From: a virus
Strand: one strand, 5' to 3'
Length of the DNA: 25,840 bases
Virus record (IMG/VR): IMGVR_UViG_3300043435_000812
Span: 1-25,840 of that record
Position 1 is the first letter of the stretch; each line of letters opens with the position of its first letter. The translations under genes and the position numbers were made by a program. The notes under the pieces were generated by a model that did not search any database, was not told where the DNA came from, and saw only the letters and a list, made by a program, of their open reading frames with translations. Below are positions 5,302 through 22,141 of the stretch, in pieces.

Positions 5302-5808
5302 TTAGAAGTCAAATGTCTCTGGTCCATCATCAATCATATCTCCATCCATCATTCTCTGGACAAAGTCATCCTCCTCATTTGCTTCATTGTAGAAATCAAT
5401 AAGGTATTGTAGAATCTCATTGTAAGTCATTTTCTTTCCTGTTTCAATCATAACCTTATCAAGTTCTGATTTGATCTCTGTATCAATGCAAATGGTTGTG
5501 TATTTGTTTTTTGTCTTACCTCTTTCCTTTCCAGTTCCATCAATGTTCCAAATAGTTCCTTTATATTGGTCAATGTAGAATCTTTCTCTATTCAATGCAA
5601 CATTTCTGTCATCAGAATCCAATGTTTCAAGGATAATGAGTTCTGGTTTTAGGTTCTTTGATTTGAGGTCAGCAATCCAAAGGTTGTTGTCTCTTACATC
5701 TTTTGAGTAATAGTGTTGTTTGTATCTAATGTCAACATTCTTAGATACTCCAACATACTTTATCAGGTTGTCTGTTGGATCTTTCAGTGCATAAATCTTG
5801 TATTCCAT
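5302..5808 (-). CDS. GIY-YIG nuclease with C-terminal ribbon-helix-helix-like domain
   Basis: 168 residues. The GIY-YIG core lies at about 3-90: KIYAL (4-8), IKYVGVS (17-22), conserved arginine in DIRYKQH (R28), catalytic glutamate in LNRERFYID (E75) and the closing asparagine in WNID (N88). A short basic linker (GKERGKTKNK) leads to residues 103-140, YTTICIDTEIKSELDKVM and MTYNEILQYLIDFY, a strand-helix-helix pattern like ribbon-helix-helix DNA-binding proteins. The tail is strongly acidic. Free-standing GIY-YIG proteins in phages are often homing-type nucleases, and a DNA-binding tail would fit. The gene stands between unrelated genes, as mobile nuclease genes do. Domain 1 is confident; domain 2 is by pattern. 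Confidence 0.8.
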   Translation of the reverse strand: MEYKIYALKDPTDNLIKYVGVSKNVDIRYKQHYYSKDVRDNNLWIADLKSKNLKPELIILETLDSDDRNVALNRERFYIDQYKGTIWNIDGTGKERGKTKNKYTTICIDTEIKSELDKVMIETGKKMTYNEILQYLIDFYNEANEEDDFVQRMMDGDMIDDGPETFDF

Positions 5809-5822
5809 ATTCTTTTTTTATT

Positions 5823-5840
5823 TTATAGTTATTATAGTTA
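5823..5840. repeat. Tandem 9-bp repeat TATAGTTAT before the GIY-YIG gene
   Basis: The plus strand has two TATAGTTA(T) units in direct repeat in the leader of the GIY-YIG gene. A copy with one mismatch lies at 7840-7857, and related copies at 13981-14001 and (minus strand) 3777-3794. All four are intergenic. Together with the surrounding AT-rich sequence this may be a binding site. Confidence 0.5.
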
Positions 5841-5855
5841 TATATTATATTTTGT

Positions 5856-6887
5856 TTAGTCCCTTGCTATTTCTTTGGCTATGAATACCATTTCAGGGTA
5901 TTTTTCTTTACAGAAGTTTAGGGCATATTCTACATCCTCTTTCTTTACTATGAGAGAATCATGGACTGTAAGACAGAACTCCAAGTCAATGTTGTTGAGT
6001 AGGTCATCTATGAATATGGTTGCTTCTTTGTATTGTAACAACCTACAAACATTCTTATAGTTGTCTGTTTTATATTTTTTTATGAACTCATTTGCTGTTG
6101 AGAATATGTCTCTTATGGTTGCTTTTTCAGAATCAATATACCCATTTCCATTTATCCAGGATGTAAATACTTCCTTTGCATCATCTCTATCACCTATTGA
6201 TGGTGTTCTTTTCATTACATATTCATAAAAGTCAATGTTATTCTCAAATACCTCATTCAGTTTATCATCTTGTAGTCCTATCTCTTTTAGGTGTAACCAA
6301 AGTAATCTTGGTTGACAAGTCTTTGCATCAATAGACCAGTATTCACCACCAGATAGTAGGTCTTTGTAAGATCCACCATCACCAATGTTACCAGTTATGC
6401 TTGTGTGTAGTCTCCTACTGAATGAATCTCTCTTTATCAGGAGACCATCTGATGGAAAGTTTAGTTGTAGCAATGAGTATCTTGTTTTCCAATACCATTT
6501 CTCACCTTCATATAGTTTTGAGAAGTCTGTTGTTATTTCATAGTCATAACCATTCTCTATGTCAATAAGAAACTTGTAACTCATACACACTCCTTGTTCT
6601 GTGTGGTAGAACTTTTTTCTTTTGATGTCAAATAAATCTTTATCATCATAGTTATATGATAAGTAATCTATAATCTTGTGTTTTTTCAGTAGATCAATAA
6701 CTTTGAAGTATTTAGGTGAGACATTATATAAGTATAGTGATGGACATTGAAAGTATCCTTTCTTATCTGACTTTGTATTTTTATACAGGAGGGCATCATA
6801 TACCTTTATGATTCTATGTTTGGCATCTTTCCTCTTTTGTAGAGAGAGGATATAATCTAACTCTTTTCCAATCTTGATTGTTTTCAT
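5856..6887 (-). CDS. Minimal family-A polymerase-like protein (palm motifs only)
   Basis: 343 residues. The C-terminal half carries the three motifs of the family-A/T7-type polymerase palm and fingers in order. Motif A is SIDAKTCQPRLL (185-196, D187), with QPR where DNA polymerase I has QIELR. Motif B is RDDAKEVFTSWINGNGY (234-250, K238 and terminal NGY). Motif C is LTVHDSLIV (306-314, H309-D310), like HDS in T7-type enzymes. RRLHTSIT (158-165) precedes motif A. There is no exonuclease domain and it is about half the length of a replicative polymerase. Related proteins of unknown role are common in Bacteroidetes phages and mobile elements. It probably acts in replication or priming. It is preceded by a long regulatory region and ends 47 nt before the GIY-YIG start. 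Confidence 0.68.
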   Translation of the reverse strand: MKTIKIGKELDYILSLQKRKDAKHRIIKVYDALLYKNTKSDKKGYFQCPSLYLYNVSPKYFKVIDLLKKHKIIDYLSYNYDDKDLFDIKRKKFYHTEQGVCMSYKFLIDIENGYDYEITTDFSKLYEGEKWYWKTRYSLLQLNFPSDGLLIKRDSFSRRLHTSITGNIGDGGSYKDLLSGGEYWSIDAKTCQPRLLWLHLKEIGLQDDKLNEVFENNIDFYEYVMKRTPSIGDRDDAKEVFTSWINGNGYIDSEKATIRDIFSTANEFIKKYKTDNYKNVCRLLQYKEATIFIDDLLNNIDLEFCLTVHDSLIVKKEDVEYALNFCKEKYPEMVFIAKEIARD

Positions 6888-8334: not shown

Positions 8335-8366
8335 TTTGGTAGAATCAGAAAAGTTCCTTATATTTG
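8335..8366 (+). promoter_or_regulatory. Bacteroidetes-type promoter (TTTG-N20-TATATTTG)
   Basis: TTTG at 8335-8338, a 20-nt spacer, TATATTTG at 8359-8366, then GAATATACAAAAACAC-like sequence up to the ATG at 8396. The -33 box starts two bases after the previous stop codon. Box sequence and spacing fit the known Flavobacteria/Bacteroides consensus. Confidence 0.85.
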
Positions 8367-8395
8367 AATATACAAAAACACAAAAACTCTCCATT

Positions 8396-8662: not shown

Positions 8663-8694
8663 TTTGGTCCATTAGAAAAGAATCCTTATATTTG
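8663..8694 (+). promoter_or_regulatory. Bacteroidetes-type promoter (TTTG-N20-TATATTTG)
   Basis: TTTG at 8663-8666, 20-nt spacer, TATATTTG at 8687-8694, again followed by AATATACAAAAAC. The -33 box begins 4 nt after the preceding stop. Drives the gene starting at 8725. Confidence 0.85.
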
Positions 8695-8724
8695 AATATA
8701 CAAAAACCCTAAAAACTTTATATT

Positions 8725-9675: not shown

Positions 9676-9707
9676 TTTGGAGTATTGTGAAATACTCCTT
9701 ATATTTG
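9676..9707 (+). promoter_or_regulatory. Promoter with an inverted repeat in its spacer
   Basis: TTTG at 9676-9679 follows the previous stop directly. The 20-nt spacer and last G of the -33 box contain the perfect 8-bp inverted repeat GGAGTATT/AATACTCC (9679-9686, 9691-9698). TATATTTG follows at 9700-9707. A dyad exactly between the boxes is a likely operator that would block RNA polymerase; it differs from the spacers of the sister promoters. Confidence 0.8.
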
Positions 9708-9728
9708 AATATACAAAAACACAGAGAT

Positions 9729-9963: not shown

Positions 9964-9999
9964 AAAAAAGACCAGGAATATGTCAACCTGGTCTTTTTT
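9964..9999. terminator. Bidirectional terminator between convergent genes
   Basis: AAAAAAGACCAGG (9964-9976) pairs perfectly with CCTGGTCTTTTTT (9987-9999) around a 10-nt loop. T-runs follow the stem on both strands, so it ends the plus-strand island and also the long minus-strand unit finishing at 10049. Confidence 0.92.
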
Positions 10000-10048: not shown

Positions 10049-10540
10049 TTATGGATTGAAAAGTTTTCCTATTCCTGGTAGCAACTTTATCACATCACTA
10101 TTATCATCATAGAATGTGGTTATACCTAAATCTTTTACTTTCTGTATCTTTCTTTGATTTGATCCTGCTGCTATTATATTCTCTCTTGGTATGTTTAGTT
10201 TGTCTGTTACAACCCACACCTCATTCAATCTAAAAAGACTTCTTGCTGTGATTACATAGTCACCACCCAGTTGTCTCCATAGTTGCTGACCTCTCTTTGT
10301 TGACAAAGTTCCATCAAAGTCCATTCCTATTTTCTCAACAGCAAACTTGTATGTTCCTCTAACAACATCTATCTGAGCACCAAGTGCTTCAAGATCACCT
10401 ATTGCAACTCCTTGTCCAATAGCCTTTTTCTTTGCTTCATTTTTACTTTCCTCATCACCAGGTGTATAAGCATAACATTTACCTGACTGACCCCATTTGA
10501 AACCTGGTTCATTGTTTATCTGACATTGTCTTATTGGCAT
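10049..10540 (-). CDS. HAD-like protein fused to a phage virion-type N-terminal motif
   Basis: 163 residues. The N-terminal 48 residues (PIRQCQINNEPGFKWGQSGKCYAY, then a charged helix to GQGVAIG) are the Cys-containing 'G.KWG.SGKCY' motif seen in several phage head proteins. From about 68 a HAD phosphatase-like core follows: motif I MDFDGTLS (D74, D76, T78), motif II VITAR (T98), lysines in NQRKIQKV (K131 or K134) and motif IV YDDNSD (D145-D146). All four positions are present, so catalysis is possible; there is no cap domain. It may be a small phosphatase or polynucleotide phosphatase. Last gene of the head unit, 1 nt after the holin. The motif assignments are by eye. Confidence 0.75.
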   Translation of the reverse strand: MPIRQCQINNEPGFKWGQSGKCYAYTPGDEESKNEAKKKAIGQGVAIGDLEALGAQIDVVRGTYKFAVEKIGMDFDGTLSTKRGQQLWRQLGGDYVITARSLFRLNEVWVVTDKLNIPRENIIAAGSNQRKIQKVKDLGITTFYDDNSDVIKLLPGIGKLFNP

Positions 10541-10541
10541 C

Positions 10542-10970
10542 TTATTCTGTTATTTTTTTTATGTCCTTCTTTACACTCATAACCTTTTTGACCAACTCTT
10601 TTACAAGTTCCCAAAATGACCTGTTTCCAAGTCTCTGTGAGTGTTCATCAAGTGATTTGACCTCTATATATGTCCAAAAGATAGACATACCCTTAGATAA
10701 GAGATATGATATACCAAACACCTTTCCACCAAACACAAACTTGTCTATCATAAGAACAAGAACAACACTTATCACATAAAAGAATGACTTTACAACTATG
10801 TTGAATAGTTTGTTAGAACTGAATGATTTCCATCCATTCATTTTTACAGACACATAGATTCCTACAAATGTATCAAGTAGAATAAAACTTATCAACATAA
10901 GTATAAGTGATTGTATTGGAGCAATGAATGTTCCAATGATTGTCAACATTGTAAGTAAAAAGTTTTTCAT
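10542..10970 (-). CDS. Phage holin
   Basis: 142 residues with about four hydrophobic segments (roughly 4-20, 22-42, 57-76 and 84-102) and a charged, lysine-rich C-terminal tail. The pattern LILMLISFILLDTFVGIYVS, then Y.EVKSLDEHSQRLG with an acidic E after the last span, matches the Phage_holin_4-type proteins common in Bacteroidetes and Firmicutes phages. Holins form inner-membrane lesions that release or activate the endolysin. No endolysin gene was recognised beside it, so that gene may lie outside the window or be one of the unknowns. It starts 1 nt after the minor head protein's stop, within the head unit. Confidence 0.78.
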   Translation of the reverse strand: MKNFLLTMLTIIGTFIAPIQSLILMLISFILLDTFVGIYVSVKMNGWKSFSSNKLFNIVVKSFFYVISVVLVLMIDKFVFGGKVFGISYLLSKGMSIFWTYIEVKSLDEHSQRLGNRSFWELVKELVKKVMSVKKDIKKITE

Positions 10971-10971
10971 A

Positions 10972-11484
10972 TTATACTCTCTCTACAAACACCATATACC
11001 AGTTGTGTCTGCAATAAGGTGTTGTTTGTCCTGTTTCTGGGTTATGATAGTATCCACCAGCATACTCAAAAACAGGTAACCCAAAACCATTAGACAAAGT
11101 GTTTATGTCATTTCTGGTGTAGAATCTATTAGCATCCAATATAATCTCACAGAAGTCCCTTGTTCTACCATCAGGTAGTATCTTTGGTCCATTTATTCCT
11201 TCTCTGAGGTCATATCTGAATCTAATCTCATACTTATCACCTAATGTTGGTCTGGTTATCACCTTCTTTTTTTTTGGGGGTCTACCTGGCACCCCTGTCT
11301 TTATAGCAAGTTCAAACTCCTGAATGAGTTCCCAAGTCATAGGAAGTTGATCTATGATCCTGAACTTTTCAGCAGGTTCACCCAACTCATTGACAAGTTT
11401 GATTTGTCTTTGTAGTTGTATTTCCTTCAACTCCTTTTTTTGAGAACTCTTTATAGAGTCTATATTTTTACTGAACTCACACAT
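10972..11484 (-). CDS. Putative minor head protein (Mu F-like C-terminal motif)
   Basis: 170 residues. The first 60 are helical and charged. A proline/lysine-rich hinge GVPGRPPKKKK (about 69-79) follows. The C-terminal part, beta-rich, contains GRTRDFCEIILDANRFYTR, then GFGLPVFEYAGG and PYCRHNWYMVF. The R.FC....CRH.W layout with a glycine pair between is the C-terminal signature of phage head morphogenesis (Mu F-like) proteins, though the usual N-terminal part is missing. It lies right after the connector gene, as minor head proteins do. The hinge is coded by five C then nine A on the coding strand, including an in-frame A_AAA_AAG slippery heptamer. Confidence 0.6.
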   Translation of the reverse strand: MCEFSKNIDSIKSSQKKELKEIQLQRQIKLVNELGEPAEKFRIIDQLPMTWELIQEFELAIKTGVPGRPPKKKKVITRPTLGDKYEIRFRYDLREGINGPKILPDGRTRDFCEIILDANRFYTRNDINTLSNGFGLPVFEYAGGYYHNPETGQTTPYCRHNWYMVFVERV

Positions 11485-11487
11485 ATC

Positions 11488-12063
11488 TTAGTATCCTCTA
11501 TTTGGAAATGAACCATTTGGTCCATAGAAGTATCTGTTTCTCTTTATTTCCCAATCCTCTCTATCAATATAGATTTCATCATTGAAAGCATTGTTGTAGT
11601 TAGGAAGTATTTGATTGTCATTGTATTGAGTATAGAGTGGAAAATCTACTCTAAACTGACAGATATAGTCTTTTGCTCTATCCTCAAAATATGCTGCTCT
11701 TTGATTGAGTTCTGACCTAAGATACTTCATTTCATCAAGTGATGCTGGATCAGCAAACTCATCTCTCATTTTGACAGCACCTTTGTTTCTCAACTTGATT
11801 GATAAGAAAGGTATTGAGATTTCTGCTGCTCTGTAAGCAAGTGCTTGTTTGATTATATCAACAAGTTCAGTCTCCTTTACATTCAATGTTCCTGCTTGAA
11901 TCTTTGAAGCAAGGTCATTGTATAGGTTCATACCAAGTATCTCTCTGGTATGGATGAGTTGAGCAGTCTCAATGTGAGGTGCTATCTCATTAGTGTCTAT
12001 GTTAGCATTCAAGGGTGTGAATGTCTTTATGTATTGTTGGTTTATCCAGATAAAAGTTGCCAT
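11488..12063 (-). CDS. Head-tail connector-like protein (DUF6712-type)
   Basis: 191 residues. The N-terminal half is helical: FTPLNANIDTNEIAPHIETA, then REILGMNLYNDLASKI and a helix with IIKQALAYRAAEISIPFLS, followed by KLRNKGAVK. This arrangement (Asn-Ile-Asp start, 'ILG..LY..L', conserved RNKG) is that of the DUF6712 connector family of Bacteroidetes phages, which sits below the portal. The C-terminal tail is rich in N, Y and F. It is 9 nt after the portal stop and 3 nt before the minor head gene, which supports the role. Family name from memory; not checked by a search. Confidence 0.7.
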   Translation of the reverse strand: MATFIWINQQYIKTFTPLNANIDTNEIAPHIETAQLIHTREILGMNLYNDLASKIQAGTLNVKETELVDIIKQALAYRAAEISIPFLSIKLRNKGAVKMRDEFADPASLDEMKYLRSELNQRAAYFEDRAKDYICQFRVDFPLYTQYNDNQILPNYNNAFNDEIYIDREDWEIKRNRYFYGPNGSFPNRGY

Positions 12064-12072
12064 ATTCTTTGA

Positions 12073-13227
12073 TTATATTGTGAATGGTTTCAACTTGTAA
12101 TGTATGTTGAATCCATTTAGTTTTAGAATGTCATTTACTGCATTTTCAAATACTCTTTGGTCTGGTTGAACTACAAACTTTGTGAAACATTTTACCTTTG
12201 TCTCAAAGTCTCCATTTCCTAACTGACCTGGAACCATTATTGAAAAGAGTTCAGGAGTAGTTGCTCTCTCACCAGTAAGTATTTTCTGTGTAATCTGGTC
12301 AGATATGATTGTGAACTGCTTATCTACATTTGAAACCTCTATTGGTGTGACATCTGGTGATAGTTCTTTACCATCAGAGAACATAACTATTGCTTTACCT
12401 GCTCTTTTTACACCACCAAATGACCTTTTCAATCCAGAAACAACATCATCTCTTTCCTCTTGTGATGCTGGTTTTCTATAAAACTTTACAACCATTGAAG
12501 GGTTGAATCCATTTTCAATCAAACTTCTGTAATAAAGACCAACTTGACTTTCAAGTGTGATCCAGTCCATTGCTGCTAAATATGTAGGTTCTCCATAGTA
12601 TTCATTTGATACCTTTGGACCTGACACATAAAAGATTTGTCTGTGATTCTCTTTATCACCTCTATCAAGGACCTCAATACACACTTCCTCCTCTCTCCTG
12701 TCTGACCAATCTCTTTTGTAGAACCATTCCTCTACATCACCATCATCAAACTTACCACTTCTCAACTTTGAAACATCAATCCTATTCACCTCAACAACTC
12801 TTGAAAAGTCAAGAGACCAGATTACCTCAAATGCCATAGCACCATATAACTGAAAGTCAAGTGATAGATCATACTTGTCTCTCTCAATGTCATCAATGAT
12901 TTTCAGAGCATCTATCTTTTGTTTCTCATCAAGGAAAGTTTCATCTATTGTATAACCTTCACCAACCACCATTTGTGCCTTTGTCTTTACAATAGCATTG
13001 TGTGTTGGACTTGTATTATACATATCCTTCAAGTATTCTGGGTATAGGTTATCCTCTCCATAGTCAACCCACTCATATACTCTGTTCTCTTTGATTATTG
13101 GTAAGTCAGTAACTGCTGACAATGAGAAAGTATCTATATAACTACCTTTATCAACAACCTTCTTTGGTTGTGAATCAATCACAGTAGTCACTTTTTGCTT
13201 TCCAAACTCCAAACCTAAAATCTTCAT
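12073..13227 (-). CDS. Portal protein
   Basis: 384 residues, somewhat short for the family. The N-terminal part reads VYEWVDYGEDNLYPEYLKDM then YNTSPTHNAIVKTKAQMVVG, the clip of the HK97/SPP1-type portal wing with the SP.H..I helix. The central stem region contains DFQLYGAMAFEVIWSLDFS and the wing/stem continues to ITLESQVGLYYRSLIENGF. The part KSFGG-like (KRSFGGVKRAGKAIVMFSDG) and FTIISDQITQKILTGERATT are typical of the crown-proximal helices. It forms the dodecameric DNA gate to which TerL docks. The order virion protein, portal, connector, minor head protein is intact. Unusual is that the terminase genes are 8 kb away rather than adjacent. Confidence 0.9.
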   Translation of the reverse strand: MKILGLEFGKQKVTTVIDSQPKKVVDKGSYIDTFSLSAVTDLPIIKENRVYEWVDYGEDNLYPEYLKDMYNTSPTHNAIVKTKAQMVVGEGYTIDETFLDEKQKIDALKIIDDIERDKYDLSLDFQLYGAMAFEVIWSLDFSRVVEVNRIDVSKLRSGKFDDGDVEEWFYKRDWSDRREEEVCIEVLDRGDKENHRQIFYVSGPKVSNEYYGEPTYLAAMDWITLESQVGLYYRSLIENGFNPSMVVKFYRKPASQEERDDVVSGLKRSFGGVKRAGKAIVMFSDGKELSPDVTPIEVSNVDKQFTIISDQITQKILTGERATTPELFSIMVPGQLGNGDFETKVKCFTKFVVQPDQRVFENAVNDILKLNGFNIHYKLKPFTI

Positions 13228-13235
13228 ATATCTTT

Positions 13236-13646
13236 TTATTTTTTGAATAACATTCTACCCTCCTCTAAGAGCGCAGGTGTATATGTTCCACCTATTGGAA
13301 GTGAAACTGTTCCAGATAAAGGCATTGGACCAGGACAACCCCAGACCTCATAACTCCATTGTGATAGGTAGTCCTCATTGGACCCTGTAAGTCCTATCTC
13401 ACCAATGTGTGGATCAAAGGTGTTTGAAGTTGTTACTGAAATGATGAACTCATTGTATCTCTGTGGTGAAAGACTTATGTCTTGATTGCCATTCTTTGTG
13501 AAACACAACTCATCCTGTGTAAGTTGATTCTTTATTTTGAAAAAGAAATAGAGGTCTGGGTAAGCAGACACAGAAGGAGTATAGAAGTCATACTTCTCAG
13601 TCAGTGTGAATACACTATTGTTCAGTCCTGGTTTTAGTATTATCAT
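13236..13646 (-). CDS. Small beta-rich virion-associated protein
   Basis: 136 residues. Starts MIILKPGLNNSVFTLTEKYD and is rich in strands and aromatic residues (YPDLYFFFKIKN, YNEFIISVTTS), with conserved-looking GEIGLTGSNEDYLSQWSYEV and a C-terminal glycine/proline-rich turn region PMPLSGTVSLPIGGTYTP. The opening resembles that of the 51-residue protein at 22790-22945 (YILKPEYEGT). Small beta-sandwich proteins of this kind are found before portal or tail genes in Bacteroidetes phages and may be capsid decoration or tail components. Starts the portal unit, with the plus-strand island divergent from it. Specific role unknown. A GCGC site lies at 13271-13274. Confidence 0.65.
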   Translation of the reverse strand: MIILKPGLNNSVFTLTEKYDFYTPSVSAYPDLYFFFKIKNQLTQDELCFTKNGNQDISLSPQRYNEFIISVTTSNTFDPHIGEIGLTGSNEDYLSQWSYEVWGCPGPMPLSGTVSLPIGGTYTPALLEEGRMLFKK

Positions 13647-13670
13647 ACTGAAAATATATTTTTGATATGT

Positions 13671-13701
13671 TTTGTTTATTTAGAAAAAATCCTTATATTT
13701 G
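13671..13701 (+). promoter_or_regulatory. Bacteroidetes-type promoter (TTTG-N19-TATATTTG)
   Basis: TTTG at 13671-13674, 19-nt spacer, TATATTTG at 13694-13701; the spacer ends AAAAAATCCT like that at 8667-8686. It drives the gene at 13722. It lies in the divergent gap with the minus-strand portal unit, which shows no TAnnTTTG box of its own. Confidence 0.82.
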
Positions 13702-13721
13702 TAAGACAAACAAACAGAGAT

Positions 13722-13952
13722 ATGAAAAGAGATTACACAGAACAAGCATTGGAGTTATCAAAGGATATCCAGATTACAAAAGATGAGTTATACCTTATTG
13801 AGATGAAAGGTGAAACACTACCACAGATGGTTGAGAGTTTTATCTGGTTGTATAATATGGAGGATGAAACTTGTGACCTACTTGGTTATGTCAATAGACA
13901 CATACAAAAAGAGGTTCAGTGGTTGAAAAAGATTGTAGAAAAACCTTTGTAG
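13722..13952 (+). CDS. Small hypothetical protein
   Basis: 76 residues, starting MKRDYTEQALELSKDIQITK. The frame is open further upstream to 13662, but that would lie across the promoter, so ATG 13722 is used. Mostly helical with an acidic bias: DELYLIEMKGETLPQMVESF and IWLYNMEDETCDLLG, ending in a short basic helix. No family recognised. Its leader (ACAGAGATATG) matches that of the gene at 9729, so it belongs to the same class of singly promoted genes, moved here between the tail-tube and portal genes. Confidence 0.68.
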   Translation: MKRDYTEQALELSKDIQITKDELYLIEMKGETLPQMVESFIWLYNMEDETCDLLGYVNRHIQKEVQWLKKIVEKPL

Positions 13953-14013: not shown

Positions 14014-14565
14014 ATGAAAACATTAGAAGCAAAAATAGCAAAGTTTATTGAGAAAAGCAACATCAAGGTTTATGAGAACAATGATGTATATAACCATATG
14101 AAACAATCTCTTTTTACATCAGATTTTTCAGTATGTGCTGAAACAGATGACATCACAACATTGGTTGATTGTGGTAATGGTAAGATGACAGCATATAGAA
14201 GTGAGAAATGTTCTATCACACTATCAGATGGTTCTCATATTCACTTTACATCACACAACAACAACATAGACATTTCAAGGGTTATATCAAACCAAAAAGG
14301 TAATGGTAAAATCTTATTGGCTCTTGTTGTTGCATTTTTCACCAATGCAGTGATTGAGACAGGTATGAAATCAGATTTAGTTCTTGAATGTATTGGTAGT
14401 GTTGGTATGGGTGATAATATGAGAAAAATGGACATCAAAGACCAGACATCATTTTTCAGATCATTTGGTTTTAGAAAGTATGGAAAATACAACCCAAATC
14501 ATATCCATATGAAACTTGATTCTAACACAAATGAATATAATGAGAGAATGAAAATGTTTGCATAA
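14014..14565 (+). CDS. Hypothetical protein, possibly GNAT acetyltransferase-like
   Basis: 183 residues, starting MKTLEAKIAKFIEKSN. The second half has the layout of a GNAT fold: a beta strand (IDISRVIS), then NQKGNGKILLALVVAF in the position of the acetyl-CoA loop (usual Q/RxxGxG/A; here QKGNGK), a helix, a strand (DLVLECIGSVG), and DQTSFFRSFGFRKYG like the 'FY.k.GF' end of GNAT enzymes. The N-terminal third is more variable (FSVCAETDDITTLVDCGNG). If right, it would transfer an acetyl group to a host or phage target. The motif is approximate, so the call is cautious. Last gene of the second plus-strand island; terminator follows at once. Confidence 0.6.
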   Translation: MKTLEAKIAKFIEKSNIKVYENNDVYNHMKQSLFTSDFSVCAETDDITTLVDCGNGKMTAYRSEKCSITLSDGSHIHFTSHNNNIDISRVISNQKGNGKILLALVVAFFTNAVIETGMKSDLVLECIGSVGMGDNMRKMDIKDQTSFFRSFGFRKYGKYNPNHIHMKLDSNTNEYNERMKMFA

Positions 14566-14610: not shown

Positions 14611-15441
14611 TTACATCCATAAGTAAGGTGCTATTGCATTTGCTGTGATTTCATATGCTTGTTCTGGTTCCATTGATGTGAAAGTTACAGAATAACCTGC
14701 TTGATCTGCTTTTGCTGTTCCTGATCCACCCTCAATAGCAGTTATATAAGAACCTTCATAAAGACCAAATAACCAGTATTTACCATTTGAGTCAAGAACT
14801 ACAATAAGTAGTTGTTTTTGACCATCAACAAGTTTCTCAATAAACTGTCTCTTTGTATTTTCTCTCCTTGAAAGAACAAGATTCACAACCTGATTGAAAA
14901 AAGTAGTTCCATTATTCATATCAACCTGAACTGCTTCTGTAAAGTTACACACATTCTTATTAGTTTGTATTTCAAAGAACAACCAAGTTGTTATAGATTG
15001 GTTTGCTGTGTTGTTTGGTGCTGGTGAAGCAGCAGGTCCTACACCTGGTGTAAATCCTGCAAAGTCTGGTGTTATAGTAGTTACATTTGTGCCTGAGTTG
15101 TAGGTAGAACTCAAAACAGGTCCTGTCCACCCACCACCACCAGTAGTAGTATTGTAAGTGAATCTAAACTGCTTACCAGGAGTGAGTATAGAAGTGAAGT
15201 TTCCAAGTAGGGTAACATTGTCTATTACTCTAAGTGGTCCTGCTATTGTTGTATTTACAGTTGCTGTTGTGGATATAACATAGATTCCCTGATTTAGGTC
15301 AGGAGAAAGTGCTGTAATCTCTCCACCACTTATAGTTGGTGACACTGATACATAATCAGCAATGTATATCTTATTGACACCACCTGCATTTGTATCACAA
15401 GACTTAGAAAGTCCAGTTGTGAGTGCATTACATATTGCCAT
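14611..15441 (-). CDS. Tail-tube-like structural protein, long paralog
   Basis: 276 residues. Residues 1-28 (MAICNALTTGLSKSCDTNAG onward) and about 155-270 (FFEIQTNKNVCNFTEAVQVD through LVDGQKQLLIVVLDSNGKYW to the MEPEQAYE end) are closely similar to the neighbouring 181-residue protein. Between them, where the shorter copy has about 33 residues, this one has roughly 93 more, rich in T, G, N and S (TYNTTTGGGGWTGPVL, TPGVGPAASPAPNN), which looks like an added surface domain. The position just after the capsid gene and the beta-rich conserved core suggest a tail-tube or major tail protein; a capsid decoration protein is the alternative. It has its own A-rich leader after a terminator. Confidence 0.7.
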   Translation of the reverse strand: MAICNALTTGLSKSCDTNAGGVNKIYIADYVSVSPTISGGEITALSPDLNQGIYVISTTATVNTTIAGPLRVIDNVTLLGNFTSILTPGKQFRFTYNTTTGGGGWTGPVLSSTYNSGTNVTTITPDFAGFTPGVGPAASPAPNNTANQSITTWLFFEIQTNKNVCNFTEAVQVDMNNGTTFFNQVVNLVLSRRENTKRQFIEKLVDGQKQLLIVVLDSNGKYWLFGLYEGSYITAIEGGSGTAKADQAGYSVTFTSMEPEQAYEITANAIAPYLWM

Positions 15442-15525: not shown

Positions 15526-16071
15526 CTATGCTATAATAGCAGAAATAATAGTTGGGTCTACACCCCATGCTTGATCTGGTTCCATTGCTGTGAAAGTAAT
15601 AGTATAACCATTAGCATCTGCTTTTGCTGTTCCAGAACCACCTTCAATAGCAGTTACATATGAACCTTCTTGTTTTCCAAATAACCAGTAGTTACCATTA
15701 GAATCAAGAACAATAATCAAAAGTTGTTTTTGACCATCTACCAACTTCTCAATAGCAGTTCTTTTTGTTGTTTCTCTCCTTGATAAAACAAGACTTACAA
15801 CTTGATTGAAAAAAGTAGTTCCATTGTTCAAATCAATAGCAACAGATTCAGTGAAGTTACAAACATTTTTGTTAGTTTGGAACTCATAGAACTTTGTTGA
15901 ACCATTCAATGTTAGAGCATCTATCCAGTCTCCTGTTTGAGGAGCAGTAGCAGCACCAATAGTATATGAAGTCACATTTTCAAAATCAGTAATATAGATC
16001 TTGTTTATACCTCCTGCATTAGTTTCACAACTCTTTGATAAACCAGCAGATAATGCATTACATATTGCCAT
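15526..16071 (-). CDS. Tail-tube-like structural protein, short paralog
   Basis: 181 residues. N-terminal MAICNALSAGLSKSCETNAG and the core from about 62 (YEFQTNKNVCNFTESVAIDL, then SRRETTKR, LVDGQKQLLIIVLDSNGNYW, EGSYVTAIEGGSGTAKAD, FTAMEPDQAW) match the long paralog next door. Cysteines C4, C15 and C71 are shared. This compact form is probably the ancestral one. It starts 64 nt after the capsid stop with a hairpin (16100-16118) between, and ends before a strong terminator, so it is likely produced in high amount, as expected for a tail tube. No known domain was recognised; role inferred from position and duplication. Confidence 0.7.
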   Translation of the reverse strand: MAICNALSAGLSKSCETNAGGINKIYITDFENVTSYTIGAATAPQTGDWIDALTLNGSTKFYEFQTNKNVCNFTESVAIDLNNGTTFFNQVVSLVLSRRETTKRTAIEKLVDGQKQLLIIVLDSNGNYWLFGKQEGSYVTAIEGGSGTAKADANGYTITFTAMEPDQAWGVDPTIISAIIA

Positions 16072-17111: not shown

Positions 17112-18212
17112 CTATTTTTGTAGATTTTTCAAGAACTCAACTCTTGCAAGAATGTGTTTCTCAGAGTTTTCTCTTTTGATTTCACTATCAGTTTTAGTTT
17201 TAGTGATAGAAGGTGCTCCTGCCATTTTAGAAAGAACTTCAACTTTATCCTCTAACTCTCTAACTTTTGATAATGTGGATTCCTCCTCAGTTGTTGGTTC
17301 AACATTTTCAAGTTTGTCTATTCTTGAACTCAACTCTGCTATGATAGTTCTCATTTCCTCAAAAATAGGCTTTACAATCTCCATAACATCAACAGTTGGT
17401 TGAGAAGGTGTTTCAGTAGCAACAGGTTCTGCCATTTCCTCATCATTTCCTGCTTCAACTTCAACTGGTTTGATTTCTGCAACCTTACCTTCACTTACAA
17501 CCAGTTTTGTTCCATCTTCTAACTCATATTCTCCATTATCAGCAGAAACCTTAGTTCCATCCTCTAATACCAAGAATACTTCTTTTCCAACAGCAGCATC
17601 ACCTTCCCAAGTCAATGTAAGACCATCTCTTGTCTTATATTCCATAAGTTGTTCATTTTTATTTTTATCTGCCTCAGCAGTCATTTCTATAAGTTCAGTT
17701 CCTGCCATGATTTCAACAGAGAATCCTTTTACTTTCTCTGTCTTTACTTCACTCATCCAGAACTCCTCATCCTTTACTTTTACACCACCAAACCAAGTTC
17801 CTTTTGGTAGTTCAAATCCATACTCCTTTGACTTATCAACTTCACCTGTAATCCAGTTTTGAAGTAAGACTGCTTGGACTTTTCTATCAGAATGTTGAAA
17901 GTTGAAAACATCACCAAGTTTGTTCTCATTGTATTTATCAGCAATGATTTGAATAGTGTCCTCATCAAACACTATGTTGTATTCATTACCTTTTTCATCT
18001 CTCCTGAAAATAAGTTTGTTAGGAATAAGCAAAGGTCCAAACAACATTTGTTTGTCCTTATTCACAGAGAACTCAAAGTCCTGTATCTCTTTTGACAACT
18101 TGATCCAGTCAACTTCAATAGCAGGTTCATCAACCAATGACACTGCATAGACTCCTGTCTTTTCATCATCAGGATTTACTACAATCCTGTAAGTAGGTAT
18201 TCTTTTCTCCAT
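17112..18212 (-). CDS. Prohead protease (XkdF/S78-type) fused to a scaffold domain
   Basis: 366 residues. Residues 1-175 are a Peptidase_S78_2-like protease: YAVSLVDEPAIEVDW (22-36), FGPLLIPNKLIFRRDEKG (58-75), FNFQHSDRKVQAVLLQNW (103-120, putative catalytic H107), GTWFGGVKVKDEEFW (138-152) and VKGFSVEIM (putative nucleophile S165). Residues about 197-252 contain a duplicated strand motif (VLEDGTKVSAD, ELEDGTKLVVS). From about 255 the chain is acidic and then coiled coil (EIVKPIFEEMRTIIAELSSR, SKVRELEDKVEVLSKM) with a basic end, as in scaffolds that are cut away during head maturation. It lies just before the capsid gene. Function follows established knowledge of such fusions; the catalytic residues are assigned by pattern. 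Confidence 0.88.
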   Translation of the reverse strand: MEKRIPTYRIVVNPDDEKTGVYAVSLVDEPAIEVDWIKLSKEIQDFEFSVNKDKQMLFGPLLIPNKLIFRRDEKGNEYNIVFDEDTIQIIADKYNENKLGDVFNFQHSDRKVQAVLLQNWITGEVDKSKEYGFELPKGTWFGGVKVKDEEFWMSEVKTEKVKGFSVEIMAGTELIEMTAEADKNKNEQLMEYKTRDGLTLTWEGDAAVGKEVFLVLEDGTKVSADNGEYELEDGTKLVVSEGKVAEIKPVEVEAGNDEEMAEPVATETPSQPTVDVMEIVKPIFEEMRTIIAELSSRIDKLENVEPTTEEESTLSKVRELEDKVEVLSKMAGAPSITKTKTDSEIKRENSEKHILARVEFLKNLQK

Positions 18213-18247: not shown

Positions 18248-21200
18248 TTAGAAACTTGTTCTCTTTTTCTCTTTCTGAGATTGAGATTGTGCTGCTGTGA
18301 TTCTACTTTCTTTTACATAAGTCTCAACAGGTCTTTCATTCAACCTATTGATTGCTTGTTCAAGTCTTGATGTATCTACAACCATTGCTTTCTCACCAAT
18401 AGTCATTGTAGTAGATGTGTTTGTAACAAGACCACCTTTGGCAAATGGTATTGCTTTACCACCACCTGCTTGATTTATAGCAGATAAAACAGGAGCATAC
18501 ATTTTTGTTGATTTGGCATTGATTACACTTTCACCATTTGATAGTCTGGCAGAGATTTTGTCATCCTTTGGACCACCTGGACCTGTAACAAGACCACCAT
18601 CAGCAAATGCTGGTTGTTGTGCTGCTATGAATCCAATCTGTGCTGCTACTTGTGTTGCTATAAGACCCTGAATGGCAAGAGCATATGGACCTGTAAGAGC
18701 AAGTGCTTTTGTAAAAGCAAGAGCACCATTTATACCTGCTTGGATTATATCTGCTGCTTTTTGTTTATTGAACTGCTCCATTCTCAGTTGTCTCTCTTTG
18801 TTCTGTCTTTCAATGTCCAACTGATTCATTTCATCCTTGAATGCTTGTTTTTTCTGTTCTACTTGTATTTCAGCAGCAGTTCTATCTTGTAGTGATAGTT
18901 CATATGCCCTTGCTTCTGCTGCAACAGCACCTATTCTTATATCATACTCTCTTTGTAGATTTTCAATCCTTCTTTCATAATCAGCATTCACAAGATCCAT
19001 AATACCAGCAGATAGTTGTGATTCAAGATTCAACATTTCTTGTATAAAATCCTGTTTACTTGCTTTTACTTTATCCTGTTCTGCTTTTATTATTTCACCT
19101 TTTTTCTTTTCATTTGCTGCCAAAGCATCCTGACCTTTCTTACCATAAGAAACATCAATAGAAAGTAGATTCTCTTGGTGGTTTATTTCAAGTGTCTCAG
19201 AATCTTTATCATATTTCTCTTTTGTAATGTTTCCTTTTTGTAAAGACATAAATAGTTCATACTTCTGTTCCTCATAAAAGTCATTCTCAATCTTAGTCAT
19301 TGCTTTGTATCTGTCCTCCAACAACTTTACAATCTTATCATTCAACTCTGGATAGTCCTTGATAAGTTGTTCAAGTCCAATCTGGTCTGGACCAGTTGGT
19401 TTTATAGCAAATGATTTTTGAGTCTTTTGTTTTTCAATAAACTTAGTTTGGTTCTCCTCAAACTTTTTTAGATCCCCTTGTGCCTTTTCAAGTTCTACTT
19501 TGTATTTTTCAGAATCAATAGGACTTAGGCTTTTATCTTTTAGTGTTTCCTCATATGCTGTTATTAGTCTCTTTTGACTATCAATAAACTTTTGATTTTG
19601 GTCAAGGTTCTTTTGGTTAGAAGTTACTATTTCAGCAGATATGTTCTTTTCAGCATCTTTCAGTATGTTTAGTTTGTCCAAATAGATAGCAGATAGAAAC
19701 TTGTTCTGACCTGTTTCACCACTATTTATTGCTCTACCAAGATCAAGAACTTGATAAATCAACTCACCTACATTCTTACTGACCTGGTCTGTCACTTTTA
19801 CTGATGATCCCCAAGCAGTATTTGTCACATCAACACTATCTTTTACTTTATCCAATGCTTTTCCAAAGTTCAAAATACTTTGATTCTCCTTACCTGTAAT
19901 CATACCAACTCTCTCTAATGTTCCAAGATAGTCAAGTAATGTAAGGTCTGCACCTGTTACTTGTCTACCCTGATTTATGAAAGTCTCTGTAAGTTGATTC
20001 ACATCATCTTTTCTGGATGCCATTATAGTCCAGATAGAAAGAACCTTATTTGTTGATGTAGAAACAGCATTCAATGTTGATCCAATACTCAGTAACTGAC
20101 TATTTTGAAGTCCAAGTGTTTGTATAAACTCTTTACTATCAGTAATGTTTTGGTCATATAGATAGGTTTGTTCAACACTCAACTTTGCTATATCCTGAGA
20201 CCTCAACTCATAGTATCCCTTTTCAGATTCATATGCTTCTGAACCAACACTTTTTGCCAGTTCTTTTGTTAGTTTTTGATACTTCTCAAAGTTGTCAAAG
20301 TTCTTTGAATACTCTTTTTCAATCTTATCATAAGTCTCTTTGTTAGCAGCAAGAACATTTGCTTTCAACTGCTTTGTTCTAATCTCAACATAGTTGATAT
20401 ACCTTCCATATTCTGATGTGGAGAGAACAATGTTTGTAGATTCTAAAATGATTTCCTTTATTCTTTCAGATTGTTCTTTGAATAGTCTTTCCTGATCTTG
20501 AAGGTATGTTCTGTTTATCTGGTCAAGTCTTGCAGTCTTTTGTGCTTCAAGTATTTGTAGTTTTTGGCTCAAACCAACTTGTGTTGCTACAAACCTGTCA
20601 TATTGTTCTTTTATTTGATTTGTATCAAGATTTACAAGATTTATCTTATTTGATTCAGCATAACTTTGAAAGTTGTTATCCACAACATCTAATGCAGAGT
20701 TGTATTCATCAATGATAGTCTGTTTTTGAGACTCCATTGAACTTTTTAGTTCAAGTAGTTGTTTCTCATATGTGTTGGTCCAACCCTCAACAATCTGTGC
20801 TTGTATATCCTCAGTATTATTTACTATTGTTTCATCAAGTTTTGAGTAGTCAGCAACAAAGTCTTTGTGTTCTTTTATGACTTTATCATTTGTCTTTTTC
20901 TCATTCTCAACTCTCTCAGTAGATGTCCTCAATCCAGATGCTTTTATCTGTTGTGATAGTTTTACAGAGTTTTGTATAGCACTACTTACAACACCTTCCT
21001 CTGCTTTGATTTGATTTTTTTTCTCATCAATAAGTTTTTGTGTTGCTTGAACTTGTTTCCACTCAGGTGTTTGTTCAATGTTGATGTCTCTATAAACACC
21101 AAGTTTTTTGGCATTCAACTGAGTTTGAGCAACACCTCTTTGTATTTCTAAGTCCAGAATCTGTTTTTCAAGAGTTGCTTGTTTTCCAAGAGCAGTTTCT

Positions 21201-22141
21201 ATTGCTTTTTGTTGAGATTGAAGGGCATACTTTTGTTTCAAGAATGAAATGTATTCTGATATAGATGCTGTTATTTGTTTTTGAAACTCATTTTCATCTG
21301 ACATATTTTTCAATGTAGTTCCATAAGTATCATTGATCTGTTTTATCAGGTCAAGTCTTTCTTGTGATTTAGGATTTGTTGCTGAAAGTTGTGCTGCAAG
21401 TGTTTGATAACCTGCTGCTTCCTTACCAATAAAACTCTCATAAGCAGCAGACTCTGCTTCAAGTGCTTTTGTTCTTTCCTCTGATGCTTTCTTTGCTTCC
21501 TCCTCTGCTTTTGTTGCCTTTTCAGTATCTTTTGAAAATAAAAATAAAGCAGTAGCAGCAGTTGCTAAGAGTCCAACCAAAGCAAGTATTGGGTTAGCAT
21601 TCATAGCAGCATTTAGTGCTCTCTGAGCCAAAGTTGCTGTTCCTGTTGAAACTGCTACTGCTGCATTGGCAACTGCTTGTTCCCCAGCCAAAGCAATAGC
21701 AGCCTTTCTCAAACCATTCTGTATGAATAAAGTAGCAGCACTTTCTTTTTGTAGAACCTCACCAACTGCTTGAACACCTTGCAATAAAGACATAGCAGTT
21801 TGAAGTTTCATTATACTTTCCTCAACCTTACCATTCTCAACTCCAAATAGTTGTGCTGCTCCCTGAGCAATAGCAAAACCACCTGCTATACCCTGTGCTA
21901 TTGATGTGAATCCTTTTAGGTTTTTCAAATCATCACCAAGGTATTTTGTAGTTGCTGCTAAGTCACCAATCTTGTCTTGTAACTGACCTGCTGCTGTTGT
22001 TATGTCATTGAATGCTTGTGATCCCTCCTCAACTTGTAATGCTGCTGATCTTAGATCTCTAAGTGCTTTCTTTGTCTCCTGAATGGTTTTAGCACTCTCA
22101 GCAGCATCTATGAGAACCTTTATGTTTATGTTTTCTGCCAT
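18248..22141 (-). CDS. Tail tape measure protein
   Basis: 1297 residues, by far the largest gene. A helical start (IDAAESAKTIQETKKALRDL), an Ala/Gly-rich helix region, a membrane-like segment NPILALVGLLATAATALFLF (184-203), then long coiled coils rich in K, E and Q (about 204-450 and 860-1125), a second hydrophobic stretch (about 1128-1178, LALTGPYALAIQGLIATQVA) and the typical tape-measure end FADGGLVTGPGGPKDDKISA with LSNGESVINAKST. It sets tail length and is ejected at infection. At about 1.5 angstrom per residue the tail would be near 190 nm. Unusually, it precedes the protease and capsid genes. An 18-bp palindrome lies before its start. No lysozyme or peptidase domain was recognised. Confidence 0.92.
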   Translation of the reverse strand: MAENINIKVLIDAAESAKTIQETKKALRDLRSAALQVEEGSQAFNDITTAAGQLQDKIGDLAATTKYLGDDLKNLKGFTSIAQGIAGGFAIAQGAAQLFGVENGKVEESIMKLQTAMSLLQGVQAVGEVLQKESAATLFIQNGLRKAAIALAGEQAVANAAVAVSTGTATLAQRALNAAMNANPILALVGLLATAATALFLFSKDTEKATKAEEEAKKASEERTKALEAESAAYESFIGKEAAGYQTLAAQLSATNPKSQERLDLIKQINDTYGTTLKNMSDENEFQKQITASISEYISFLKQKYALQSQQKAIETALGKQATLEKQILDLEIQRGVAQTQLNAKKLGVYRDINIEQTPEWKQVQATQKLIDEKKNQIKAEEGVVSSAIQNSVKLSQQIKASGLRTSTERVENEKKTNDKVIKEHKDFVADYSKLDETIVNNTEDIQAQIVEGWTNTYEKQLLELKSSMESQKQTIIDEYNSALDVVDNNFQSYAESNKINLVNLDTNQIKEQYDRFVATQVGLSQKLQILEAQKTARLDQINRTYLQDQERLFKEQSERIKEIILESTNIVLSTSEYGRYINYVEIRTKQLKANVLAANKETYDKIEKEYSKNFDNFEKYQKLTKELAKSVGSEAYESEKGYYELRSQDIAKLSVEQTYLYDQNITDSKEFIQTLGLQNSQLLSIGSTLNAVSTSTNKVLSIWTIMASRKDDVNQLTETFINQGRQVTGADLTLLDYLGTLERVGMITGKENQSILNFGKALDKVKDSVDVTNTAWGSSVKVTDQVSKNVGELIYQVLDLGRAINSGETGQNKFLSAIYLDKLNILKDAEKNISAEIVTSNQKNLDQNQKFIDSQKRLITAYEETLKDKSLSPIDSEKYKVELEKAQGDLKKFEENQTKFIEKQKTQKSFAIKPTGPDQIGLEQLIKDYPELNDKIVKLLEDRYKAMTKIENDFYEEQKYELFMSLQKGNITKEKYDKDSETLEINHQENLLSIDVSYGKKGQDALAANEKKKGEIIKAEQDKVKASKQDFIQEMLNLESQLSAGIMDLVNADYERRIENLQREYDIRIGAVAAEARAYELSLQDRTAAEIQVEQKKQAFKDEMNQLDIERQNKERQLRMEQFNKQKAADIIQAGINGALAFTKALALTGPYALAIQGLIATQVAAQIGFIAAQQPAFADGGLVTGPGGPKDDKISARLSNGESVINAKSTKMYAPVLSAINQAGGGKAIPFAKGGLVTNTSTTMTIGEKAMVVDTSRLEQAINRLNERPVETYVKESRITAAQSQSQKEKKRTSF

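Follow-up and report, generated by a model that had tools for sequence, protein, structure and literature searches.

The gene and its surroundings

We analysed a 25,840-nucleotide stretch of viral DNA, referred to in its entirety as the window, with a focus on a minus-strand gene that encodes a 163-residue protein composed of an N-terminal 'KWG' module, a linker and a capless domain of the HAD type (Table 1). The gene is the last of a run which comprises, in this order, the portal gene, a DUF6712 gene, a gene of unknown kind, a holin gene and the KWG-HAD gene itself.

Table 1. Coordinates of the KWG-HAD gene, its parts and its neighbours in the window.
Feature	Position	Strand	Basis or remark
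KWG-HAD gene, whole	10049..10540	-	ORF, 163 aa, ATG start; KWG module, linker, HAD domain
KWG module, residues 1-48	10397..10540	-	alignment A3 and AlphaFold2
Linker, residues 49-65, predicted disordered	10346..10396	-	pLDDT < 50 at residues 48-65
Capless HAD domain, residues 66-163	10052..10345	-	alignment A6, AlphaFold2, structural alignment to T4 Pnkp
Holin, directly upstream of the KWG-HAD gene	10542..10970	-	PF05105 Phage_holin_4_1, E=2.5e-8
Gene of unknown kind	10972-11484		between DUF6712 gene and holin
DUF6712 gene	11488-12063		within portal run
Portal protein	12073..13227	-	phrog_33693, E=7.6e-38
XkdF-type (Peptidase_S78_2) prohead protease, without HAD insert	17112..18212	-	PF14550, E=7.2e-12
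Very long tape-measure-like protein	18248..22141	-	seed of TMP-like HMM; name inferred from length and position

The gene is genuine. It is under purifying selection (dN 0.14, dS 0.73) when compared with an 82%-identical homologue, L055, located on the same record as L004, and relatives are present on viral contigs in the form of three identical loci, one 82%-identical and one 40%-identical locus, with L007 carrying a near-identical copy of the module and HAD gene. Neither Pfam nor NCBIfam holds a model that scores above cut-off on the 163-residue protein, and the family PHROG_8630, annotated as 'nucleotidase', matches it (E=2.7e-4) over residues 95-161 only, with the KWG module outside the match. 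AlphaFold2, used with a 48-row alignment, predicts two parts with high confidence (block means of 90-96 for residues 1-40 and of 96-98 for residues 71-160), which are joined by the low-confidence stretch that starts at residue 48.

Between the KWG-HAD gene and the converging plus-strand gene, an inverted repeat, AAAAAAGACCAGG...CCTGGTCTTTTTT, was spotted by eye at 9964-9999, which is likely a two-way terminator; the scan did not list it, since its loop of 10 exceeds the loop length allowed there. Two plus-strand genes (13662-13952 and 14014-14565) lie inside the minus-strand structural run, between the gene at 13236-13646 and the tube-like genes, and a relative of the second holds the same place in L004 (1220-1819). 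The tube-like genes (14611-15441 and 15526-16071) are adjacent paralogues that both begin with MAICNAL, and are called 'tail-tube-like' by position only. Elsewhere in the window, the minus-strand gene at 5856-6887 encodes a 343-residue protein with a VHDSLIV motif, which we take to resemble that of family A DNA polymerases; a sequence search of the PDB gave no match to it at E<=0.1, and the protein is possibly a minimal polymerase. The product of the minus-strand gene at 5302-5808 resembles a GIY-YIG endonuclease.

A 22-base leader, TATATTTGAATATACAAAAACA, is present in three plus-strand copies in the window (8359-8380, 8687-8708 and 9700-9721; one with a single mismatch; zero copies expected) as well as in the close relatives L007 (4261-4282, 5602-5623) and L004 (6185-6206, 6553-6574), and is positioned just ahead of small plus-strand genes. 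With TAnnTTTG being what we take to be a promoter motif of the Bacteroidota type, the repeated leader, TATATTTG, looks like a promoter or leader from that group. Since, moreover, the nearest isolates of the portal are the Nonlabens phages P12024S/L (28%, E=2e-34) and a HAD relative is found in Flavobacterium phages, the host likely belongs to the Bacteroidota.

The HAD domain and the KWG module

In a first-pass annotation of the window, the protein had been read as a HAD phosphatase with a full set of catalytic residues, fused to an N-terminal motif known from phage head proteins. The catalytic set is indeed complete: motif I reads D74-F-D76-G-T78, and motifs II, III and IV are provided by T98, K131 and D145, respectively. 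All motifs of the HAD superfamily (DxD, S/T, K and an acidic residue) are found in the 48-row alignment A6, in which D74, T/S98, K131 and D145 are each conserved in 48/48 sequences and D76 in 46/48, the other two having His. The same replacement of the second Asp of motif I is seen in 4 of 52 non-redundant HADs, all of one clade (L005, L013, L142 and L150), in which catalysis may be dispensable.

The predicted fold of residues 71-160 is the HAD Rossmannoid fold, and many HAD chains align with the model at Z-scores of 8-10.3. By structural alignment, the closest enzymes are (i) the 3'-phosphatase domain of T4 Pnkp (5uj0; Z-score 10.3, rmsd 2.7, 98 aligned residues, 12-13% identity) and (ii) the deoxyribonucleotidase-like (dNT-like) protein 3bwv (Z-score 9.1, rmsd 2.3, 89 aligned residues). 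Universal stress proteins reach a Z-score of 10.7, and this identity was rejected in spite of the score, the HAD motifs being intact. With such a tie, membership of the HAD superfamily does not follow from the fold by itself. Since universal stress proteins thus score like Pnkp, and since Foldseek found no match for the HAD model in the PDB at E<=1e-3, the fold leaves the substrate unfixed, too. HADs devoid of a cap often have large substrates. A viral fold library yielded 18 matches at E<=1e-3, including four 'HAD-like domain containing' and five 'PBSX protein XkdF' entries. Sequence profiles of the HAD domain gave E-values of 0.033-2 (A2) and 0.0048-0.96 (A6) against the PDB, which were not used.

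The KWG module comprises about 48 residues, which in the AlphaFold2 model form two strands (3-8 and 11-16) and a helix (30-48), and M1, P2, C6, G13, G17, G20, C22, Y23, Y25, A36, A40, Q43 and A46 are invariant in the 20-row alignment A3. A scan with a three-row alignment led to at least 48 viral loci, whereafter scans of one viral collection with the 20-row module alignment and with the HAD domain alone yielded 244 and 212 confirmed relatives, respectively. The locus set was assembled from the best 80 of the 244, the best 80 of the 212 and the 48 earlier loci, and counts derived from it lean towards relatives of the window. Merging of loci on the same contig reduced the set from 198 to 160 loci (1946 ORFs), with near-copies on different contigs being kept. 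In this de-duplicated set of 160 viral loci, the module was located in 90 ORFs, a member of the HAD family in 76 and both parts in 17; the two parts of the protein hence recur separately as well as together, in agreement with the two-part architecture initially proposed. The module begins within the first three residues in 86 of the 90 ORFs, as located with the module HMM, and stands nearly alone in 17 of them (at most 70 residues), so that a search beyond the window confirms a motif that is N-terminal in other phage proteins, too.

Pfam was applied to 89 of the 90 module ORFs, with L095 (53 residues, weak 31-residue module match) being omitted and near-copies (L154/L155, L018/L177) being counted. 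The partners identified are DUF5872 (20 ORFs), DUF5824 (16 ORFs) and a number of weaker matches. Head families are represented by Peptidase_S78 (4), Peptidase_S78_2 (3), DUF2213 (2; which we take to be a family of head proteases) and Phage_Mu_F (1). The asserted occurrence of the motif on phage head proteins is therefore real, with at most 10 of 89 module ORFs matching these four families (fewer if one ORF matches two) and at least 79 matching none of them; PHROGs, too, assigns 'head maturation protease' families among the module ORFs. One module ORF, L051 (6001-7521), has a domain of ATP-dependent DNA ligases as the fusion partner (PF01068, E=8.9e-15).

The neighbourhood of the 72 module ORFs devoid of HAD was compared at two distances, considering the best 25 of 86 and of 93 families in the two lists. 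Among directly adjacent genes (±1; 125 proteins of at least 70 residues), the leading families are those of portal, major head, scaffold, tape measure and HNH proteins, with member counts of 2-4, while those at ±5 (103 proteins) comprise glycosyltransferase, thymidylate synthase and others along with scaffold and single portal or head matches, which amounts to no more than a trend. In cultured phages, the module consensus matches only Vibrio phage 11895-B1 (two records of one genome) at E<=1, in which the module stands alone with 57 residues; the window's own 52 residues, when used as a query, gave further matches (E 3-6; four additional phages), which were not used. A pattern scan of a genome collection matched three stretches with one partial relative, in a Lachnospiraceae MAG, and at the sensitivity of this pattern the module is rare in that collection. 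A sequence search of the PDB with the module profile returned no match at E<=5.

Head proteins as carriers and a slot with changing payload

Relatives of the HAD domain lend weight to its suspected tie to the phage head: 36 of the 76 HAD ORFs also match Peptidase_S78_2 (XkdF-type) and 4 of the 76 match Phage_portal. Likewise, a home-made protease HMM detects 37/73 HAD ORFs of at least 130 residues versus 14/507 other ORFs from these loci (Fisher p=1e-26, without correction for relatedness). When these cis forms are aligned, the HAD domain follows the N-terminal strands and precedes the core of the protease, mostly behind a small Cys-containing module ('RC'); the model of a protease-HAD protein is of moderate confidence (mean pLDDT 76.9). 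The junction at which relatives have the cassette, mostly RC plus HAD, lies after residue ~40 (about nt 18070-18095 in the window), and the protease of the window is continuous exactly at this junction (A7).

Small cassettes other than KWG are found in XkdF proteases and in stand-alone HAD genes, that is, RC (F..RC....QA.AIC) in 50 ORFs and YNDYP/GWG.CG in 34 ORFs (examples for RC and YNDYP: L058-L128, e.g. L064 at 5752-6768; L021, L019). The Pfam matches of the HAD ORFs include no family covering either cassette, and both may be tags like KWG.

Exactly one HAD is present per record in all 56 records that were searched whole, that is, in 29/29 trans and in 27/27 cis records, the latter being 27 out of 41 loci with a protease or portal fusion. 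The S78_2 protease (PF14550) is encoded by a separate ORF in 21 of 26 trans records (26 of the 29, with G005, G015 and G017 omitted); the remaining 5/26, possibly fragments, show none. The window has a single S78_2 place and a single HAD place, which reside in different ORFs. A second, HAD-free protease was found in 0/37 cis loci within the fetched stretch.

The stand-alone forms vary in their surroundings. In L088, L089 and L092, a bare HAD gene of 97 residues shares 11 nt with the end of the protease gene. Of 18 stand-alone HADs without KWG, eight are followed by terL at a distance of two or three genes and these three are located beside the protease, while in seven cases nothing within three genes is recognised as belonging to head or packaging. 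Distant stand-alone relatives exist in Flavobacterium elemo phages (33%, E=7e-5), between tail fibre and chaperonins, and in Lactococcus phages, near the endolysin and outside the recognised head module. Separate genes with unrelated neighbours had been named as a finding that would count against the first idea of a phosphatase brought into the head or injected. The parts do occur apart; yet, since the separate HAD often lies within or beside head and packaging genes, these exceptions aside, this widens the idea rather than refuting it.

The module itself occupies a recurrent position. In 21 loci, two of which (L025 and L029) are near-copies, the module gene is located directly before an ORF of at least 550 residues; all 21 such ORFs match the TMP-like family, and PHROG tape-measure matches were obtained for three neighbour ORFs. 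The gene that follows encodes an S78_2 protease in 19/21 loci, with the contigs of L017 and L197 ending first or soon after. Behind the module, these 21 loci encode nothing (6), DUF5824 (6), HAD (6), DUF5824 followed by HAD (2) or HAD followed by DUF5824 (1). On a maximum-likelihood tree of the 21 TMP-like proteins, the HAD label requires five changes, at least four of which are forced by well-supported branches, and the three payload labels together require eight. Since at least four switches of HAD are needed, the payload has been exchanged repeatedly while the module and its position remained constant. The labels are partially clustered (as low in shuffles for HAD in 42/500, for 'none' in 11/500 and for DUF5824 in 280/500), as expected from inheritance.

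Of the 17 genes with both module and HAD, nine lie directly before the TMP-like gene, five follow the holin of the portal run, one lies directly before terL, one is separated from terL by a single gene, and one is found between tail and protease genes. The position by the holin, at the end of the portal unit, on which the first-pass annotation had remarked, is thus correct for the window and does not extend to the family, where it applies to 5/17. Judged from these gene arrangements, KWG acts like an invariable N-terminal adaptor behind which the cargo can be swapped (nothing, DUF5824, HAD or both). The earlier idea finds partial support in a broader version, namely that of an exchangeable cargo slot.

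Proposed function and comparison with known systems

On balance, we lean towards the view that KWG-HAD is a head-associated phosphatase which acts on polynucleotide ends or nucleotides, either at packaging or after ejection. The KWG module would bring the capless HAD phosphatase to the procapsid, and related phages would achieve the same in cis, with the HAD being part of the XkdF prohead protease or of the portal protein. The domain would then serve as a phosphomonoesterase for polynucleotide ends or nucleotides, similar to the T4 Pnkp 3'-phosphatase or a nucleotidase, and would be active either at the packaging stage or, following ejection, in the host. The procapsid is suggested as the workplace because the HAD is fused to prohead protease or portal in relatives, and because KWG itself heads prohead proteases and MuF; the window's own HAD is devoid of such a fusion and has the KWG tag instead. 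We infer the location in the capsid, the substrate, the time of action and a possible injection of the protein. The DNA ligase-module protein, a single case, fits the theme of nucleic-acid end repair.

A late nucleotidase or accessory enzyme of salvage, located among head genes for operon convenience and equipped with KWG as a small stability or oligomerisation domain, appears unlikely to us. While the 'nucleotidase' match of PHROG_8630, the relatives in Lactococcus and Flavobacterium phages that stand alone outside the head module, and the seven stand-alone HADs without a recognised head neighbour are in line with such an enzyme, its covalent fusion to prohead protease (36/76) and portal (4/76) is hard to square with operon convenience, and so is the single copy, in cis or in trans, in 56/56 records. 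We likewise give little credit to the HAD being an assembly factor, that is, a domain that serves the prohead protease as scaffold or regulator (e.g., one dephosphorylating or binding coat, portal or terminase) that is removed at maturation and for which catalysis is optional. The catalytic residues are kept in nearly all aligned members, and 12 of the 21 phages with the same slot have no HAD behind the module, which both speak against this role, although it would account for the HAD being placed behind the N-terminal strands and ahead of the protease core, the 11-nt overlaps of bare HAD genes with the protease gene, the proximity of terL in 8/18 stand-alone cases and the His at position 76 in one clade. 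Finally, it is highly improbable that KWG is unrelated to the head and its fusion a product of neutral shuffling in fast-evolving environmental phages: a link to the scaffolding family PHROG_3503 (consensus E=0.019) had to be dropped, as it amounted to two weak places among 37 records searched, with matches turning up in 4 of 14 control genomes as well, which is to the credit of such shuffling, but the N-terminal position of the module with its invariant residues, and the one genomic slot that is kept while the payload changes, argue against it.

Our favoured reading of a head-associated phosphatase can be extended, tentatively and with less confidence than the reading itself, to the possibility that KWG is the founder of a new class of folded N-terminal tags for prohead loading. 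In many uncultured phages, one slot by the tape measure or the portal run, consisting of tag and payload, would serve to load heads with enzymes like the 3'-phosphatase-like HAD or a DNA ligase, which are possibly ejected to heal nucleic-acid ends in the new host, with the prohead protease being the alternative carrier. If correct, this would provide (i) a sequence handle for virion-loaded enzymes in uncultured phages (244 module and 212 HAD relatives), (ii) a short tag of potential use for loading phage heads with proteins, and (iii) a concrete prediction of what prohead proteases carry besides the protease domain.

Fusions of enzymes to head proteins are already known. Parts of PMC5512222 describe MuF- and portal-fused enzymes, RNase and end-processing domains included, as packaged effectors or polyvalent proteins. 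As in the relatives identified here, enzymatic domains are fused to head proteins in these systems and are thought to be delivered with the DNA. The carriers differ, being MuF and portal in the described parts of that work and the XkdF prohead protease and the 48-residue tag here, with HAD as payload. In the main text of PMC5512222 the terms 'phosphatase', 'haloacid' and 'XkdF' are absent, and 'prohead protease' occurs in the reference list only. A search of journal literature that covered a minority of the subscription papers and no preprints brought up neither the KWG module nor the protease-HAD fusion nor an exchangeable cargo slot of this kind.

Parts of PMC7824862 deal with HAD phosphatases involved in phage RNA repair, and XkdF is suggested there to be the head-protein peptidase of some jumbo phages. 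T4 Pnkp and the PNK-HAD or 'Swiss-army-knife' RNA repair phosphatases share the DxDxT HAD motif with the protein of the window, and Pnkp is its closest enzyme fold in the PDB. However, T4 Pnkp possesses a 5'-kinase domain, whereas the 163-residue protein consists of KWG, linker and HAD only, without kinase or ligase. The nucleotidases of PHROG_8630 from Lactococcus phages (949, WRP3 and others) share the C-terminal half (residues 95-161), but the gene in WRP3 is located near the endolysin and not in the head module.

The capsid targeting sequence of phage T4 is a short N-terminal peptide which is present on several proteins and is removed by the prohead protease. Like this element of the T4 internal proteins, which places them in the prohead, KWG is N-terminal and heads several unrelated proteins. 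In contrast to the short T4 peptide, KWG is predicted to be a folded domain with two invariant Cys residues.
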